Shown here piece after piece: positions 3,145 through 7,877 of a stretch of DNA of 10,391 bases. The position numbers were made by a program, and so were the translations under genes. The stretch is from Minisyncoccota bacterium (GTDB lineage Bacteria > Patescibacteriota > Minisyncoccia > Phycocordibacterales > GCA-2747955): assembly GCA_023143935.1 (NCBI GenBank), contig JAGLGQ010000012.1, positions 1-10,391 on the forward strand. The letters are read 5' to 3'. Position 1 is the stretch's first letter, and every line of letters begins with the position of its first letter. A model generated the notes under the pieces. That model was not told the origin of the DNA and made no database searches. It saw only the letters and a list, made by a program, of their open reading frames with translations.

Positions 3145-5268
3145 ATGAAAAATTTATTTAAAAAAATAATCATAGGAATAGTTGCTTTATTGGCGGTTAC
3201 TTCTGTGGTATCAGCAGCGTCAGCGTCTGATCCCAATGGTTTACATATTTTAGTGTCAAAAGTAAATCATTCTGGTAGTTATTCGCAAGATGTGACAATT
3301 TCAGATGGTGATGAAATTACTTTTAATGTACATATTTATGCTAATGGAGGTGATCTTACGAATGCAGTTACACATTTAGGAGACTTATCTGGTGTAATAA
3401 TTGACGGAAGAAGAACAATAGATGCTTATGTAGATGCAGATAATGCAAGTAGAATAAGTGACTCTGTTACGGTGAGATCAAACGAGAGAATTACACTTGA
3501 ATTTGATCACTCTACTTTACAATTTAATGAATGTCAAAGTGAATCTTGTGCGGTTGCTAGTGGTTATAGAAATGAATATTCTGCATCAAAATTATATGAG
3601 AATGAATATATGAATGCGGTATTTGTATATAGAGTTGAGGGTGAAGACGATGAAGACGAAGACGAAGATTTAGAAGTTAAAACCCGTTCAGCTATAAATA
3701 TAGATGAAGATTCAGCTACCTTAAGAGGTGAAGTTGAAGAGGGGGAAAATGTAGAAGTTTGGTTTGTATATTCAAGATCAGATTCAACTCCAGAATGTGA
3801 CGGAAATGATGAAAAAGAAACAATTTATGGTTCTTTTGATGACGGCGATGAATTCTCTGATACTATTAGAAACTTAAGAGAAGATACAAAATATTATTAC
3901 AGAGCTTGCGGGGAATCATATGCAGGAGTAGAAGCAGATGGTTCAGTTTATTCTTTTACAACTGATGAAGAAGATGATGAAGACGAAGACGAAGATTTAG
4001 AAGTTAAAACCCGTTCAGCTACAAATATAGATGCAGATTCAGCAACATTAAGGGGTGAAGTTGAAGAAGGAGAAAATGTAGAAGTTTGGTTTGTGTATTC
4101 AAGATCAGATTCAACGCCAGAATGTGATGGAAATGATGAAAAAGAAACAGTTTATGGTTCTTATGATGAAAACGATGAATTTTCAGATACAATCAGAAAT
4201 TTAAGAGAAGATACAAAATATTATTTTAGAGCTTGTGGTGAAGCTTACGGTGATGAAGTAGATGGTTCAGTTTATTCATTTACAACCGACGATGAAAGTG
4301 ATTCAGATACTGATTTAGAAGTAAATACAAATAATCCAACAAATATTTCATATACTTCTGCAACATTAAATGGAGATATTGATTTAGGAAATGAAGATGA
4401 AGCAGTAGTTTATTTTAAATATGGTATTTATAATTTAGACGAAAATAAAACAAATGATGCTACTGTATATAATGATGGTTCGTTTAGGGCATCACCAACA
4501 GGGTTATTACAAGGTAAAACATATTGGTATAGAGCGTATGCGAAAGATGAAAATGGAAACATTGTTAAAGGTGAATCAAAATTTTTTACAACAAGAAGTA
4601 ATTATGTGCCACCCTATGTTCCACCATACGTACCACCTTATGTTCCGCCAGTTGAACCAACAGATGATGTAGTTGTAATTATTGAAAATATTGTAGAAGT
4701 AGGTTTTCAAATAAATAAATGGGTTTCACAAGAAAGAAACACTGCGTATGGTACAGAAATTCAAGCAGAAGAAGGAGATGTTATTTATTATAAAGTGAAA
4801 GTGAGAAATAATACTGATGATACGATGGAAGATATTACAGTAACAGATCATATTCCTTATGAATTAGAATTAGATAATTATGCATCTACTGATGATAATG
4901 CTACAAAATATTTAACTTGGAAAGTGAATGATTTACAACCGGGGGAATCAAGGGTGTTTATTACAGAAATGAGAGTGTCGGATAAAGTAGAATATGGAGA
5001 AGTTATTAAGGCAAAAGCTGAAATTGTTTCAAATAAAGGACGGGAAGATACAAATTCAGTTTCAATCTTTATTGAAAGAGAAGGAATGAATAATCAAGCA
5101 GCTTCTATTTTTGGATCTAATTCAAACTTTTTTCCAGATACATTATTAGGGTATTTAATATTATTTATTGCGGTATTATTAATTGTTTTTCTAATTACGG
5201 GTTTAATGGGGAATGGTTCAAATTCATCAAAAGCAATTTTAGCTAGATTAAAAAGAGAAGAATCATAA
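3145..5268 (+). CDS. Membrane-anchored surface protein: Fn3-like repeats, YVPP linker, DUF11-like domain
   Basis: The 707-residue protein starts with a signal peptide (1 to about 24, VSA cleavage site). An unassigned beta-rich domain (28-165, Cys130/Cys135) is followed by an acidic linker EDDEDEDED (167-175). Three Fn3-like repeats lie at about 176-273, 285-381 and 391-483; each opens LEV and ends FTT, with TKYYYRACGE or a variant near the end. Repeats 1 and 2 are nearly identical and carry cysteine pairs (218/255, 327/364) that may form internal disulfides; repeat 3 has none. Four YVPP units (487-502) lead to a DUF11-like domain (about 517-643, ITVTDHIP at 563-570). A C-terminal membrane segment (665-688) and a basic tail anchor it in the membrane; no LPXTG is seen. 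It is probably an extended surface or adhesion protein. It lies 49 bases after the previous gene with no clear promoter of its own, and a strong terminator follows. Confidence 0.92.
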   Translation: MKNLFKKIIIGIVALLAVTSVVSAASASDPNGLHILVSKVNHSGSYSQDVTISDGDEITFNVHIYANGGDLTNAVTHLGDLSGVIIDGRRTIDAYVDADNASRISDSVTVRSNERITLEFDHSTLQFNECQSESCAVASGYRNEYSASKLYENEYMNAVFVYRVEGEDDEDEDEDLEVKTRSAINIDEDSATLRGEVEEGENVEVWFVYSRSDSTPECDGNDEKETIYGSFDDGDEFSDTIRNLREDTKYYYRACGESYAGVEADGSVYSFTTDEEDDEDEDEDLEVKTRSATNIDADSATLRGEVEEGENVEVWFVYSRSDSTPECDGNDEKETVYGSYDENDEFSDTIRNLREDTKYYFRACGEAYGDEVDGSVYSFTTDDESDSDTDLEVNTNNPTNISYTSATLNGDIDLGNEDEAVVYFKYGIYNLDENKTNDATVYNDGSFRASPTGLLQGKTYWYRAYAKDENGNIVKGESKFFTTRSNYVPPYVPPYVPPYVPPVEPTDDVVVIIENIVEVGFQINKWVSQERNTAYGTEIQAEEGDVIYYKVKVRNNTDDTMEDITVTDHIPYELELDNYASTDDNATKYLTWKVNDLQPGESRVFITEMRVSDKVEYGEVIKAKAEIVSNKGREDTNSVSIFIEREGMNNQAASIFGSNSNFFPDTLLGYLILFIAVLLIVFLITGLMGNGSNSSKAILARLKREES
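3643..4293 (+). repeat. Tandem duplication of an Fn3-like module (about 327 bp per unit)
   Basis: Unit 1 (3643-3969) and unit 2 (3970-4293) each begin with the acidic DE linker and encode one Fn3-like domain. The proteins differ at few positions, and unit 2 is one codon shorter near its end. Silent differences are scattered throughout, so this duplication is older than the 30-bp array in the LysM-like gene. A third, diverged copy (4315-4593) lacks the cysteine pair. Confidence 0.92.
4603..4650 (+). repeat. Four YVPP units with diverged codons
   Basis: Four 12-base units each encode YVPP, but the codons differ between units (TAT/TAC, GTG/GTT/GTA, and CCA/CCC/CCT/CCG). Conservation at protein level with drift at silent sites implies selection for a stiff, extended Pro-rich spacer between the Fn3-like part and the DUF11-like domain. 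Confidence 0.92.
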
Positions 5269-5293: not shown

Positions 5294-5335
5294 AAAACAG
5301 GATTTTGCTTCGCAAAATCCTGTTTTCCTTTTTAA
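5294..5335 (+). terminator. Rho-independent terminator after the surface-protein gene
   Basis: Perfect 15-base arms (5294-5308 and 5312-5326; core CAGGATTTTGC) close on a TTC triloop. A CCTTTTT tract follows, and the 5' arm begins with an A-run. It lies 25 bases past the stop and separates the envelope genes from hisS. Confidence 0.93.
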
Positions 5336-5355: not shown

Positions 5356-6675
5356 ATGACAAAAATAAATACTAAACCACTTTCTGGTTTTATGGAATTA
5401 AAACCAGCAGAGCAGATTTTATTTGATAAAATTAAAGAAACTATAGAAAAAAATTATCAGCTTTTTGGTTTTATTCCCATGGATAATCCTTTAATAGAAC
5501 GAAAAGAAGTTTTATTTGCAAAAGCTGGAGGAGAAACAGAAACTCAAATTTATGAATTTCGTAAAGGTGATACCGACCTCGCACTTCGTTTTGACCTTAC
5601 AGTACCGCTCGCAAGATATGTAGCGGATAATTATGGAGAATTAACCTTTCCTTTTAAAAGATATCAAATAGCCAAAGTGTATAGAGGCGAAAGACCGCAG
5701 GCGGGAAGATTTAGGGAGTTTTATCAAGCAGATATTGATATTATCGGAGATGAAACTTTAGATTTAAATTTTGATTCAGAAATACCAGCAGTAATTGTAA
5801 AAGTTTTTAATGATCTTGGTTTTGAAAATTTTACCTTAAGAATAAATAACAGAAAAATTTTTAATGGTTTATTTTTAGATTTAGCTTTAGAAAAAGAATC
5901 GGAATGGATTATGCAAATTATTGATAAACTTGATAGGGTCGGAGCTGATATGTGTCAAGAAGAATTAAAGGAAAAAGGAATTCATTTTAAAAAAGTAGAT
6001 AAAATCTTTAATCTTTTAAAATTAAAGGGAACTAATTTGGAAATTTTAGAAAATTTAAAAAAAATGGAAATTGAAAATGAAATTTTTGATGAAGGGGTTA
6101 GGGAATTAGAATTGGTAATAAACAATCTTCAATCTTTGGGAATTAAAGAAAAATATTTTGAAATTGATTTAACGATAGCAAGAGGTTTAAATTATTATAC
6201 TGGTACTGTATATGAAACAAGATTGAACGATTATTCAGAAATTGGTTCCGTGTGTTCAGGGGGAAGATATGATAATTTAGCTTCTGAATATACAAGTAAA
6301 AAACTTCCTGGTGTTGGAATTTCAATTGGACTTTCTAGGCTTTTTGATCAATTATTAAAAAAAGAAGTTATAAAATCAAACGAATCAACATATACAAAAA
6401 TTCTGATTTTACCAATGGAAAAAAATGCAAAAGAGAATGCATTGGAATTGGTTTCAAAACTTAGAGATAATAATATTCCTTCTGAAATTAATTTAAATTT
6501 TGATAAAAAATTACCCAAAAGAATAAAATATGCGGATAAACTCAATATTCCTTCTGTGATATTTATTGGAGAAGAAGAATTGAAAAAAAATAAATATACT
6601 TTAAAAAATATGGAAACTGGAAAGCAAGAATTAGTAAATTTTGAAGAGATTTTGAAAAAAAATAATGAAAAATAA
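5356..6675 (+). CDS. hisS: Histidyl-tRNA synthetase
   Basis: This class II synthetase charges tRNA-His with histidine in the cytoplasm. From the ATG at 5356 it has 439 residues, a usual length. Motif 2 spans about 107-130 (VYRGERPQAGRFREFYQADI), with the catalytic arginine in RFRE. The histidine-specific motif is RGLNYYTGTVYE (276-287). SGGRYDNL (301-308) is followed by motif 3, PGVGISIGLSRL (318-329). A C-terminal anticodon-binding domain (about 345-435) completes it. An upstream in-frame ATG at 5305 is rejected because it lies inside the terminator hairpin. The -10-like GATAAT (5341-5346) would start transcription only a few bases before the ATG, so the mRNA may be nearly leaderless. Its last codons lie inside a 27-bp direct repeat that copies the start of orn. 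Confidence 0.97.
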   Translation: MTKINTKPLSGFMELKPAEQILFDKIKETIEKNYQLFGFIPMDNPLIERKEVLFAKAGGETETQIYEFRKGDTDLALRFDLTVPLARYVADNYGELTFPFKRYQIAKVYRGERPQAGRFREFYQADIDIIGDETLDLNFDSEIPAVIVKVFNDLGFENFTLRINNRKIFNGLFLDLALEKESEWIMQIIDKLDRVGADMCQEELKEKGIHFKKVDKIFNLLKLKGTNLEILENLKKMEIENEIFDEGVRELELVINNLQSLGIKEKYFEIDLTIARGLNYYTGTVYETRLNDYSEIGSVCSGGRYDNLASEYTSKKLPGVGISIGLSRLFDQLLKKEVIKSNESTYTKILILPMEKNAKENALELVSKLRDNNIPSEINLNFDKKLPKRIKYADKLNIPSVIFIGEEELKKNKYTLKNMETGKQELVNFEEILKKNNEK

Positions 6676-6690
6676 AGATAATTTAATTTG
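6664..6690 (+). repeat. Left 27-bp direct repeat: fossil orn start at the end of hisS
   Basis: These 27 bases are identical to 7261-7287, the start of orn; allowing one mismatch the match extends to 6655-6690. The copy contains the ATG (6665-6667) and the next seven codons of orn (MKNKDNLI), then a TGA (6689-6691) in place of the Trp codon of intact orn. It overlaps the last codons and stop of hisS. Confidence 0.93.
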
Positions 6691-6691
6691 A
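6665..6691 (+). pseudogene. orn: Truncated remnant of the orn 5' end
   Basis: Eight codons (MKNKDNLI) identical to the N-terminus of the intact oligoribonuclease, followed by a stop. The ATG overlaps the final hisS codons in another frame. I infer that it marks the original orn start, before the toxin-antitoxin cassette entered and the 5' end of orn was duplicated. Confidence 0.7.
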
Positions 6692-6736
6692 GTGGAATTT
6701 TTAAAAAAGTATGATATTATAATATTATAATATAAT
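6688..6736 (+). promoter_or_regulatory. Promoter region of the toxin-antitoxin operon, three overlapping TATAAT boxes
   Basis: TATAAT occurs at 6718-6723, 6726-6731 and 6731-6736. A weaker pair, TTGAGT (6688-6693) with TATGAT (6710-6715), has a 16-base spacer. Use of the last -10 would give a leaderless antitoxin message (ATG at 6745). The TTG of the -35-like box comes from the end of the direct repeat. Confidence 0.5.
6714..6733 (+). promoter_or_regulatory. 20-bp perfect AT-only palindrome, likely antitoxin operator
   Basis: This 20-base stretch equals its own reverse complement and overlaps two of the TATAAT boxes, 11 bases before the antitoxin ATG. RHH antitoxins commonly repress their own operon by binding symmetric sites at the promoter. 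An all-AT palindrome is less improbable in this genome than a mixed one. Confidence 0.5.
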
Positions 6737-6744
6737 ATATAAAT

Positions 6745-6963
6745 ATGACTACAATTTCAGTACCATTAAATCAAGAACTTGATGAATTTATTCAAGATAT
6801 GATAGATAATAATAATGCCGAAACTAAATCAGGGGTTGTTCGTATGGCTTTAAGAAAATTAAAGGAAGAACAGTTAATTAAAGAAATAATTGAAGCAAAA
6901 AATTCTGTAAAAAAATATGGAACATTTTCGGGAGATTTAGATAAGTTAGTTAAAAAAATTTAA
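6745..6963 (+). CDS. RHH-type antitoxin of a type II toxin-antitoxin system
   Basis: The 72-residue protein has the ribbon-helix-helix layout of ParD/CopG-like antitoxins. A DNA-contacting beta strand (TTISVPL, 2-8) is followed by helix A (ELDEFIQDMIDNN, 11-23) and helix B (TKSGVVRMALRKLKEEQ, 27-43). A charged C-terminal arm (44-72, ending GDLDKLVKKI) would cover the toxin. It should neutralise the toxin encoded 12 bases downstream and repress the operon as a dimer; the palindrome at 6714-6733 is the likely operator. No Shine-Dalgarno is present. The pair interrupts hisS and orn and is flanked by direct repeats, consistent with acquisition as a cassette. Confidence 0.88.
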   Translation: MTTISVPLNQELDEFIQDMIDNNNAETKSGVVRMALRKLKEEQLIKEIIEAKNSVKKYGTFSGDLDKLVKKI

Positions 6964-6975
6964 TTTAATAATTTT

Positions 6976-7248
6976 ATGTATAAAATTACTTATTCTTATT
7001 CTTTTTTAAAAAAATACAAAAAATTTAAATTAAAAAATAAAAATTTAGCAGAAGAAATAAAAGAAAAAATAGAAGAATTTAAATATGAAAAAAATCATAA
7101 AAAATTAAAAGTTCATAAATTAAAAAAACCATTTAAAAATCTTCATGCTTTTTCTGTTAATTATAAAATAAGAATAATTTTTGAATATTCAGATAAAAAA
7201 ACAATGGTTATATTATTAACTTTGGGAAATCATGATATTTATAATTAA
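6976..7248 (+). CDS. RelE/YafQ-like mRNA interferase toxin
   Basis: This 90-residue, strongly basic protein fits the RelE/ParE superfamily in size and layout. Lys-rich helices (9-39) are followed by a C-terminal beta sheet: LKVHKLKKPFKNLHAFSV (44-61), NYKIRIIFEY (62-71) and the closing MVILLTLGNHDIYN (77-90). Family members often show KVHKLKG, AFSV.YR.RIIF and LL.IGTHDEVY at these places, most like the YafQ/RelE-StbE group, which cut mRNA on the ribosome. GNHDIYN carries the His commonly seen in that ending. ParE-like gyrase inhibition is not excluded from sequence alone. It follows the RHH antitoxin by 12 bases without a Shine-Dalgarno, so it is probably translated from the same message. It ends 13 bases before the orn ATG. 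Confidence 0.88.
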   Translation: MYKITYSYSFLKKYKKFKLKNKNLAEEIKEKIEEFKYEKNHKKLKVHKLKKPFKNLHAFSVNYKIRIIFEYSDKKTMVILLTLGNHDIYN

Positions 7249-7260
7249 TAAAAAAAAAAA

Positions 7261-7287
7261 AATGAAAAATAAAGATAATTTAATTTG
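7261..7287 (+). repeat. Right 27-bp direct repeat at the start of orn
   Basis: Identical to 6664-6690 and 597 bases from it. This copy holds the functional ATG and first codons of orn. The 570 bases between the two copies (6691-7260) contain only the toxin-antitoxin genes and their promoter. Confidence 0.93.
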
Positions 7288-7804
7288 GATAGATTGTGAG
7301 TTTACTGGTTTAGATTATTTTAATAATAAAATAGTGGAAATTGCTGTTTTGGTAACTGATAAAAATTTAAATATTTTAGATAAAGGATTAAATTTGATAA
7401 TACATCAAAGTGATGATGTATTGGAAAATATGAATGAATGGTGTATTGAAAATTTTGAGAAATCAGGATTAATACAAAAAATCAAAGAAAGTGTTTTGAA
7501 AATTGAAGAAGCAGAAAAAGAAATTATAAATTATTTGAAATTATACACTATACCAAAAACAGCACCGCTTTGCGGAAACTCTATTGCACAAGATAGAAAA
7601 ATTCTTTTCAGAGAAATGCCCAAATTAGATGAGTATTGTCATTACAGAAGTATAGATGTTAGTTCTATAAAAGAATTAGCAAAGAGGTGGAAACCAGAAA
7701 TTTTAGAAAAAGTTGTAAAGAAAAAAGAACATCGGGCTTTAGATGATATAAAAGAATCGATTGAAGAATTAAAAATTTATAAAAAAGAATTTTTTAAAAT
7801 ATAA
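7262..7804 (+). CDS. orn: Oligoribonuclease (DEDDh 3'-5' exonuclease)
   Basis: Orn degrades 2- to 5-nucleotide RNA fragments to mononucleotides, the last step of RNA turnover, and also pGpG from cyclic-di-GMP breakdown where that pathway exists. The 180-residue length matches the family. The DEDDh catalytic set is visible: D11 and E13 in WIDCEFTGLD (9-18), D111 in CGNSIAQDR (104-112), and H157 and D161 in EHRALDDI (156-163). Family signatures HQSDDVLENMNEWC (48-61) and KELAKRWKPEIL (137-148) are present. I chose the ATG at 7262 because it begins the conserved N-terminus; an upstream in-frame ATG at 7232 lies within the toxin gene and adds only a Lys-rich extension. The first eight codons are duplicated at the end of hisS. 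A poly-A run (7249-7262), not a Shine-Dalgarno, precedes the start. Confidence 0.97.
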   Translation: MKNKDNLIWIDCEFTGLDYFNNKIVEIAVLVTDKNLNILDKGLNLIIHQSDDVLENMNEWCIENFEKSGLIQKIKESVLKIEEAEKEIINYLKLYTIPKTAPLCGNSIAQDRKILFREMPKLDEYCHYRSIDVSSIKELAKRWKPEILEKVVKKKEHRALDDIKESIEELKIYKKEFFKI

Positions 7805-7805
7805 A

Positions 7806-7877
7806 AAAATTTTTCAACAAGCAAGGCCTGTACGGTAACTTTAGTTACCGTACAGGCCTTGCTTGTTGAAAAATTTT
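7806..7877. terminator. Perfect 35-bp inverted repeat after orn, probable bidirectional terminator
   Basis: Arms 7806-7840 and 7843-7877 are exact reverse complements across two central bases; a realistic loop would be CTTTAG. The base of the stem is A/T-rich and the middle is unusually GC-rich for this DNA (AAGGCCTGTACGG). It begins just after the orn stop. The U-tract is only the TTTT inside the 3' arm, so termination is likely but the structure is larger than termination needs. Confidence 0.75.

Follow-up and report, generated by a model that had tools for sequence, protein, structure and literature searches.

A toxin–antitoxin unit bracketed by a duplicated hisS–orn junction in a small-genome bacterium

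The hisS–orn locus and its toxin–antitoxin unit

We analysed a 10,391-bp stretch of DNA (the window), which is the whole of contig C24 in a metagenome bin (G000; 129 contigs, 629,564 bp, 88.1% complete) that represents an uncultured bacterium whose genome is very small. In the window, a toxin–antitoxin pair lies between hisS, encoding histidyl-tRNA synthetase, and orn, encoding oligoribonuclease, the four genes following one another on the forward strand in the order hisS, antitoxin, toxin and orn (Table 1). HisS matches Pfam families PF13393 and PF03129 above cut-off. Its C-terminal residues, KKNNEK, are identical in a homologue of 99% identity (P0001) and its C-terminal length is that of homologues to within a few residues (12 sequences aligned). 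Orn is full-length and scores 259.4 bits with NF003765, against a curated cut-off of 106. An NLIW motif stands near the N terminus in 12 of the 14 Orn homologues compared, with HLVW instead in the other two, and is preceded by ten residues in one homologue (P0157) and by some sixteen in another (P0167).

Table 1. Positions of features at the hisS–orn junction (window coordinates) and of tRNA-end duplications (locus coordinates)
Feature	Position	Strand	Basis or remark
hisS, histidyl-tRNA synthetase, 439 aa	5356..6675	+	ATG at 5356; ORF open from TTG at 5305
Direct repeat, left copy	6655..6690	+	27 bp exact from 6664 (6664–6690); 36 bp with one mismatch
ATGAAAAATAA, 11 bp of the left copy shared by the hisS stop and an orn-type start	6665..6675	+	Read directly
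Promoter-like TTGAGT-16-TATGAT	6688..6715	+	First three bases within left copy
Inserted segment, 570 bp	6691..7260	.	Between the 27-mers
Imperfect palindrome, likely antitoxin operator	6710..6737	.	14-nt arms, 93%
Antitoxin, 72 aa, probably ribbon-helix-helix type	6745..6963	+	Sub-threshold TIGR02606; homologue on G001:C69
Toxin, 90 aa, YafQ/RelE-like	6976..7248	+	PF15738 and TIGR00053 sub-threshold; 36 database matches
Run of 13 A, toxin to orn	7250..7262	+	Sequence count
Direct repeat, right copy	7252..7287	+	27 bp exact from 7261 (7261–7287)
orn, oligoribonuclease, 180 aa, intact	7262..7804	+	NF003765, PF00929
tRNA-end duplications	L185:5904-6200, L189:1984-2189, L159:2958-3215, L122:3496-3741, L182:5029-9049; also L070, L073 (G001)		Repeat screen

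The segment between the two housekeeping genes wholly contains two open reading frames (ORFs) of at least 60 amino acids (aa), of 72 and 90 aa; both are toxin–antitoxin-like, and a transposase or integrase gene is absent. The antitoxin scores 28.9 bits with the ParD family model TIGR02606, below the cut-off of 46.2. The toxin scores 23.9 bits with PF15738 (cut-off 30), 30.2 with TIGR00053 (87.25) and 19.5 with TIGR02385 (27.9), and so falls under the cut-offs of YafQ, RelE/StbE and YoeB models alike. Because every curated profile score is under cut-off, we use the label YafQ/RelE-like only. Several of its 36 database matches carry PF15738 or PF05015 labels. When the window toxin and 31 of these matches were combined into a 32-sequence profile, it hit five PDB chains with E values of 2.4e-4 to 3.4e-4, of which four are named YoeB or RelE and the best, 7bwf_A, is labelled antitoxin RelB. 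The pair resembles YafQ–DinJ and other RelE-type modules in gene order, sizes, toxin family similarity and the upstream palindrome, but differs from them in that both proteins lie below the curated cut-offs of every matched Pfam and NCBIfam family.

By homology, the 90-aa protein is a putative toxin that would cut mRNA, and its partner would act as an antitoxin, neutralising it and repressing the operon. An inverted repeat is also found upstream of the homologous antitoxin in a relative, G001. The promoter-like element comes from a pattern search of weak discrimination, which found 8 sites against 7.2 expected in shuffles. Orn may now share the toxin–antitoxin transcript.

A direct repeat holding a gene end and a gene start

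The toxin–antitoxin unit is bracketed by two exact 27-bp copies of a direct repeat, spaced 597 bp apart with 570 bp between them. In the left copy an ATG at 6665 opens eight orn codons that are followed by TGA, and the hisS stop codon, TAA (6673–6675), lies within the same copy. The true start of orn is in the right copy. Hence the repeat includes both the hisS stop, for which the left copy is needed, and the orn start, for which the right copy is needed. The preliminary description of this DNA had reported the repeats, 27 bp exact or 36 bp with one mismatch, around a 570-bp toxin–antitoxin segment, and we recovered them from the sequence and by a repeat search; its account of the left copy, with an ATG in the last hisS codons and eight Orn residues before a TGA, agrees with our direct reading.

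Chance origin of the repeat is excluded, because shuffles reach 19 bp at most and the repeat falls where one gene ends and another starts. This figure is the longest exact direct repeat 60–2,000 bp apart when the window was shuffled 300 times at order 3; when the whole bin was shuffled three times (129 contigs, copies 60–8,000 bp apart), two repeats of at least 20 bp arose, of 20 and 21 bp. In the 36-bp version, A makes up eight of the nine extra bases. Direct repeats of at least 25 bp are numerous elsewhere in the bin, so that the length of this one is not unique and it is its position that is special. When the bin was searched at the DNA level with positions 6600–7340, none of the 21 scored matches covered the repeat itself at another site. 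The A-run that overlaps the right copy is of a rare kind, runs of A or T of at least 12 occurring nine times in the whole bin.

Probable insertion into an overlapping gene junction

Removing one copy and the insert in silico leaves a hisS that ends in KKNNEK and a stop and an orn that begins MKNKDNLIWIDCEF, the two sharing 11 bp. Such overlaps are ordinary in this genome: 23 of 268 adjacent same-strand ORF pairs overlap, three of them by 11 bp (a crude ORF count). The hisS stop inside the left copy looks native because the C-terminal length of HisS matches that of homologues. The two copies show no substitution over the 15 bases past the hisS stop, where the left copy encodes nothing known, which suggests that the event was probably recent.

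We therefore consider it likely that a toxin–antitoxin operon was inserted into an ancestral 11-bp overlap of hisS and orn and that 27–36 bp of target were duplicated. The operon would have entered the junction, presumably a previously empty site, as the target was copied; the left copy would then have retained the hisS end and the right copy the orn start. Insertion without target duplication would destroy hisS or orn, whereas here both genes would have survived, so that the insertion could be kept. The direct copies are longer than the duplications made by insertion sequences, one completing hisS and the other orn. The presence of the pair elsewhere in G001 and the lack of a toxin match in the other eight family genomes are what a mobile unit would be expected to show. 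The preliminary description had likewise proposed an ancestral hisS/orn overlap duplicated by insertion, and three observations support it: a single flank join restores both genes, HisS has a homologue-like length and 11-bp overlaps exist elsewhere in the genome. Clean excision between the repeats would be possible in principle.

The right junction recurs in a second sequence. P0157, the best-scoring Orn match, represents an eight-sequence cluster that includes the window's own Orn; it is listed with one 35,742-bp contig, and we took representative and contig as belonging together. The protein is 190 aa long, carries MIFIINKKKK ahead of MKNKDN, and is one residue different from the window Orn. 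Window positions 7232–7261, the toxin 3′ end and the A-run, encode MIFIINKKKK in the orn frame; the N-terminal ten residues of P0157 therefore equal the toxin end and A-run read in that frame. Judged by this protein sequence, there is a second sequence, with another orn allele, in which orn follows the toxin end.

The locus and its toxin family in relatives

Several results from relatives weigh against an insertion of this kind. hisS has matches in all ten family genomes, and orn was found in 8 of 61 genomes, the window's own included (genus and family searches); an empty hisS/orn site was not found in these searches. Among the seven relatives with orn, hisS was not within about 1.5 kb of it in any of the six with the upstream region on the contig (in the seventh, G006, that region is off the contig), and orn was not seen beside hisS at the relatives' hisS loci compared. 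The ancestral overlap is thus deduced from this locus alone, because hisS and orn are neighbours in no relative examined. A scan of genome contigs for Orn gave five loci at 50–53% identity, none from a close relative. Moreover, the recurrence in P0157 concerns the right junction, and the left junction was not seen in a second contig.

Of the ten family genomes, only G000 and G001 have a match to the toxin. In G001 toxin and antitoxin stand together on contig C69, 63 and 69% identical, respectively, to those of the window, at a location other than hisS/orn. At the nucleotide level the two units are similar over insert positions 51–561, essentially the two genes. Also counting against the proposed insertion, no flanking repeat was found at the G001 unit (1.4 kb), only a 19-nt repeat of 84% inside the unit.

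The toxin family is widespread in the order, with matches at an E value of 1e-8 or better in 134 of 397 genomes. We compared nine related toxin loci, the top matches ranking above G000 itself, with about 1.2 kb on each side (two shortened by contig ends). These loci add to the points against: an exact direct repeat of at least 15 bp is missing at seven of the nine, a 15-bp repeat at one does not bracket the toxin, and a bracketing 36-bp repeat at the last (G357) is a hairpin rather than a gene-end copy. The nine loci gave no clear second case.

The G357 locus (contig C5; L203:154-1609) consists of two consecutive toxin–antitoxin units, each followed by the same 36-bp hairpin repeat in a cassette-like array. 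This repeat was rejected as a second case, since it is a hairpin that follows each of the two units.

Mechanism and alternative explanations

A recombinase acting in trans, one of the routes suggested in the preliminary description, is not supported. The bin has no match to Phage_integrase (PF00589), Resolvase (PF00239), Cas1 or Ku, which in a genome 88% complete is not proof; among 14 control genomes the same profiles matched in 14, 10, 9 and 1, respectively. No XerC or XerD was found, because there is no PF00589 match. One Y1 transposase match lies on contig C8 of the bin, in a search that did not extend to other transposase families or reverse transcriptase. Breaks staggered by about 30 bp, or template switching during replication, could instead have captured the toxin–antitoxin unit, with fill-in copying the target during capture. 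Staggered breaks with fill-in, or template switching, would seem to fit the footprint best, and we hold this with less confidence than the insertion itself.

The most probable alternative is that 27–36 bp of the orn start were copied back to the hisS end at a later time, by template switching between A-rich tracts, with hisS, the toxin–antitoxin pair and orn already being neighbours. A-rich tracts precede both copies, hisS–orn adjacency is absent from the relatives seen, and the genome is rich in local direct repeats. However, back-copying would need luck twice over, as hisS would have had to acquire an end that is in frame and normal in length, and the orn start to overlap hisS in a way typical of genes, and we regard it as unlikely.

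If a small circle had been integrated site-specifically, by an Xer- or integron-like recombinase of the tyrosine or serine type, the repeat would be the shared core site. Toxin–antitoxin modules do occur in dif-module or integron cassettes, and Xer/dif-type sites are close to 27–28 bp in size, which counts for such integration, as does the cassette-like array of G357, where each unit has the same 36-bp hairpin repeat. The window unit is like these cassettes in being small and lying between short direct repeats, but unlike them in that its repeat consists of target gene sequence, it does not form part of an array and no recombinase was found. An integron or Xer cassette calls for a host recombinase, and neither PF00589 nor PF00239 has a match in the 88% complete bin. 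Moreover, the hisS end and orn coding sequence fully account for the repeat, which is matched nowhere else among the 21 matches scored, making site-specific integration very unlikely.

Less probable still is a partial tandem duplication, or else a homologous exchange with donor DNA in which the toxin–antitoxin pair already stood beside orn. The separation of orn from hisS in the relatives seen would suit it, and the G001 unit shows that such segments move; the left copy, however, stops abruptly after 27 bp with no longer orn homology, and no donor arrangement was found.

An assembly error joining a toxin–antitoxin contig to hisS/orn might be suspected in a metagenome bin of 129 short contigs. 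We rejected it as extremely improbable since the right junction is reproduced in P0157, a cluster representative with a longer contig and a different orn allele, and since both repeats are internal to the window contig. Reverse transcription of the operon transcript into the site, which would leave a poly(A) tail and a target duplication, is suggested by the rare 13-A run between insert and right repeat, but is hardly credible and was rejected because the insert begins upstream of its own likely (weak) promoter and operator and a 36-bp target duplication in which one T became A accounts for the A-run equally well.

Gene-end duplications elsewhere in the genome

We screened all 129 contigs for exact repeats of at least 22 bp, dropping those of low complexity. 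There were 112 repeat pairs, in 30 of which the copies were not both in ORF interiors. Seven of the 30 were judged by eye to be gene-end duplications, with an intact gene end and an orphan copy: hisS/orn, obgE, tRNA-Lys (51 bp), tRNA-Pro (44 bp), tRNA-Thr (27 bp), tRNA-His (47 bp) and tRNA-Gln (22 bp). Several others of the 30 are repeated paralogues or hairpins, and entries touching an ORF end in a crude gene call (L122 8512, L137 8942 and L129 38) were not counted.

In the putative obgE, the first 46 bp occur twice (L115:4659-4704 and 4824-4869), 165 bp apart, with a 119-bp insert, a gene-start duplication resembling the one at orn. We take the gene to be obgE from its first residues; an Obg domain match starts contig C54. 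Only 10 bp separate the right copy from a contig end, which, with the tentative gene name, weakens the case for a single process. The truncated tRNA-end copies lie about 80–4,000 bp from intact tRNAs, in G000 for Lys, Pro, Thr, Gln and His, in a bin with 22 tRNA genes (ARAGORN), and in G001 for Leu and Ile. Also speaking against a single process, the tRNA-Thr insert contains further degenerate tRNA-like copies and the tRNA-Lys insert an inverted copy (by eye), the tRNA-His repeat is mostly outside the tRNA, and that of tRNA-Gln does not exceed 22 bp. In 236,687 bp from nine relatives, examined as pieces, tRNA-end copies occur in G005 (Cys) in addition to those of G001, and none of the copies could be tied to the start of a protein gene. 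An 8-mer shared by the left edges of the orn and obgE inserts, TTTGAGTG, was dropped as a signature, as it occurs 23 times in the genome.

As evidence of one genome-wide habit these duplications are suggestive but mixed. The lineage might repeatedly capture short segments, selfish toxin–antitoxin units included, within a few dozen bases of either end of essential genes, without a recombinase and copying 20–50 bp of target, so that the orn, obgE and tRNA-end duplications would be its footprints. Because the cases differ and several have simpler readings, we keep a common process as a bold reading only, and a doubtful one. If it is true, target copying would make gene ends safe landing places.

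UGA decoding in the genus

In this genus, the TGA at the end of the left copy may be something other than a plain stop, since UGA appears to be read as tryptophan in G001–G003. With TGA read through, long-ORF coverage of the fetched sequence rises from 0.60 to 0.81 in G001, from 0.52 to 0.82 in G002 and from 0.68 to 0.88 in G003, with little or no gain in G000 and G004–G009. Raw TGA:TGG counts, which are noisier, are 99:83, 36:13 and 27:13 in G001, G002 and G003, yet also reach 22:27 in G007 and 15:23 in G006, the stop-to-stop ORFs there taking in leaders. The amino acid read at TGA was checked on orn only: the G001 gene has five TGA codons at columns where 9, 9, 4, 7 and 9 of nine homologues have tryptophan. 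The loci behind these observations are L014, L069–L074, L079 and L082.

The prfB cut-off (370 bits) is reached in none of the ten genomes. Release-factor scores form two bands, which we read as RF2 (276–299, G004–G009) and RF1 (218–238); G000–G002 have the lower band only and G003 neither, the RF2-like band being present in the six other family genomes. G000 uses TGG and nearly no TGA, with 2 TGA among 67 long-ORF stops in 100,197 bp. Its in-frame TGAs, inspected by eye, fall mostly in leaders, other frames or last codons, and it has one tRNA-Trp, with anticodon CCA. G000 looks intermediate in its use of UGA. In the accessible part of a published paper, bacterial UGA-to-Trp reassignment is listed only in Mycoplasmatales, Entomoplasmatales and insect symbionts (PMC8629427). 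On the strength of that list, the window's genus, through G001–G003, may be a further such clade.

Other features of the window

Directly 3′ of orn (7806–7877) lies an inverted repeat whose 35-nt arms pair perfectly around a 2-nt loop; among 203 loci compared, a 28-base piece of it matches exactly in four, all of them cut from this one place. The translations at 1432–2307 and 3145–5268 are internally repetitive proteins, with RVVPTRIVSE units and, in the 707-aa protein, domain copies that resemble one another.

Comparison with known insertions and implications

Insertion with long target duplication has been described from two Helicobacter pylori genomes, where it is linked with genes for restriction-modification (Nobusato et al. 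2000, Gene 259:99, as cited in PMC1643837, PMC3031569 and PMC3874152). Such units move without a mobile element, and the accessible text of PMC3874152 gives their duplications as long, variable and of the order of 100 bp. The preliminary description had called a long duplication without a transposase unusual. The insert does lack a transposase or integrase, but the restriction-modification insertions, as reported in these citing papers, are similar. As far as those sources describe them, the hisS–orn insertion is like them in involving a self-maintaining unit able to move without a mobile element, and in a target duplication that exceeds those of insertion sequences. It differs in that the cargo is a type II toxin–antitoxin pair, the duplication is 27–36 bp rather than of the order of 100 bp (PMC3874152), and the host belongs to a small-genome lineage rather than Helicobacter, with no empty-site strain found here. 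Among the titles accessible, which leave the subscription literature mostly uncovered, none reports a type II toxin–antitoxin pair inserted with long target duplication; within that range, the toxin–antitoxin cargo is a new case of such insertion.

How toxin–antitoxin pairs move without an attached transposase is a long-standing question, to which this locus brings a clean footprint. Target duplication is the only way in which both overlapping housekeeping genes could be spared, and the locus supplies a search rule, namely small inserts flanked by truncated gene ends. If empty-site strains are found, the mode of insertion described for restriction-modification genes would extend to type II toxin–antitoxin units, and to a small genome without a detectable recombinase.

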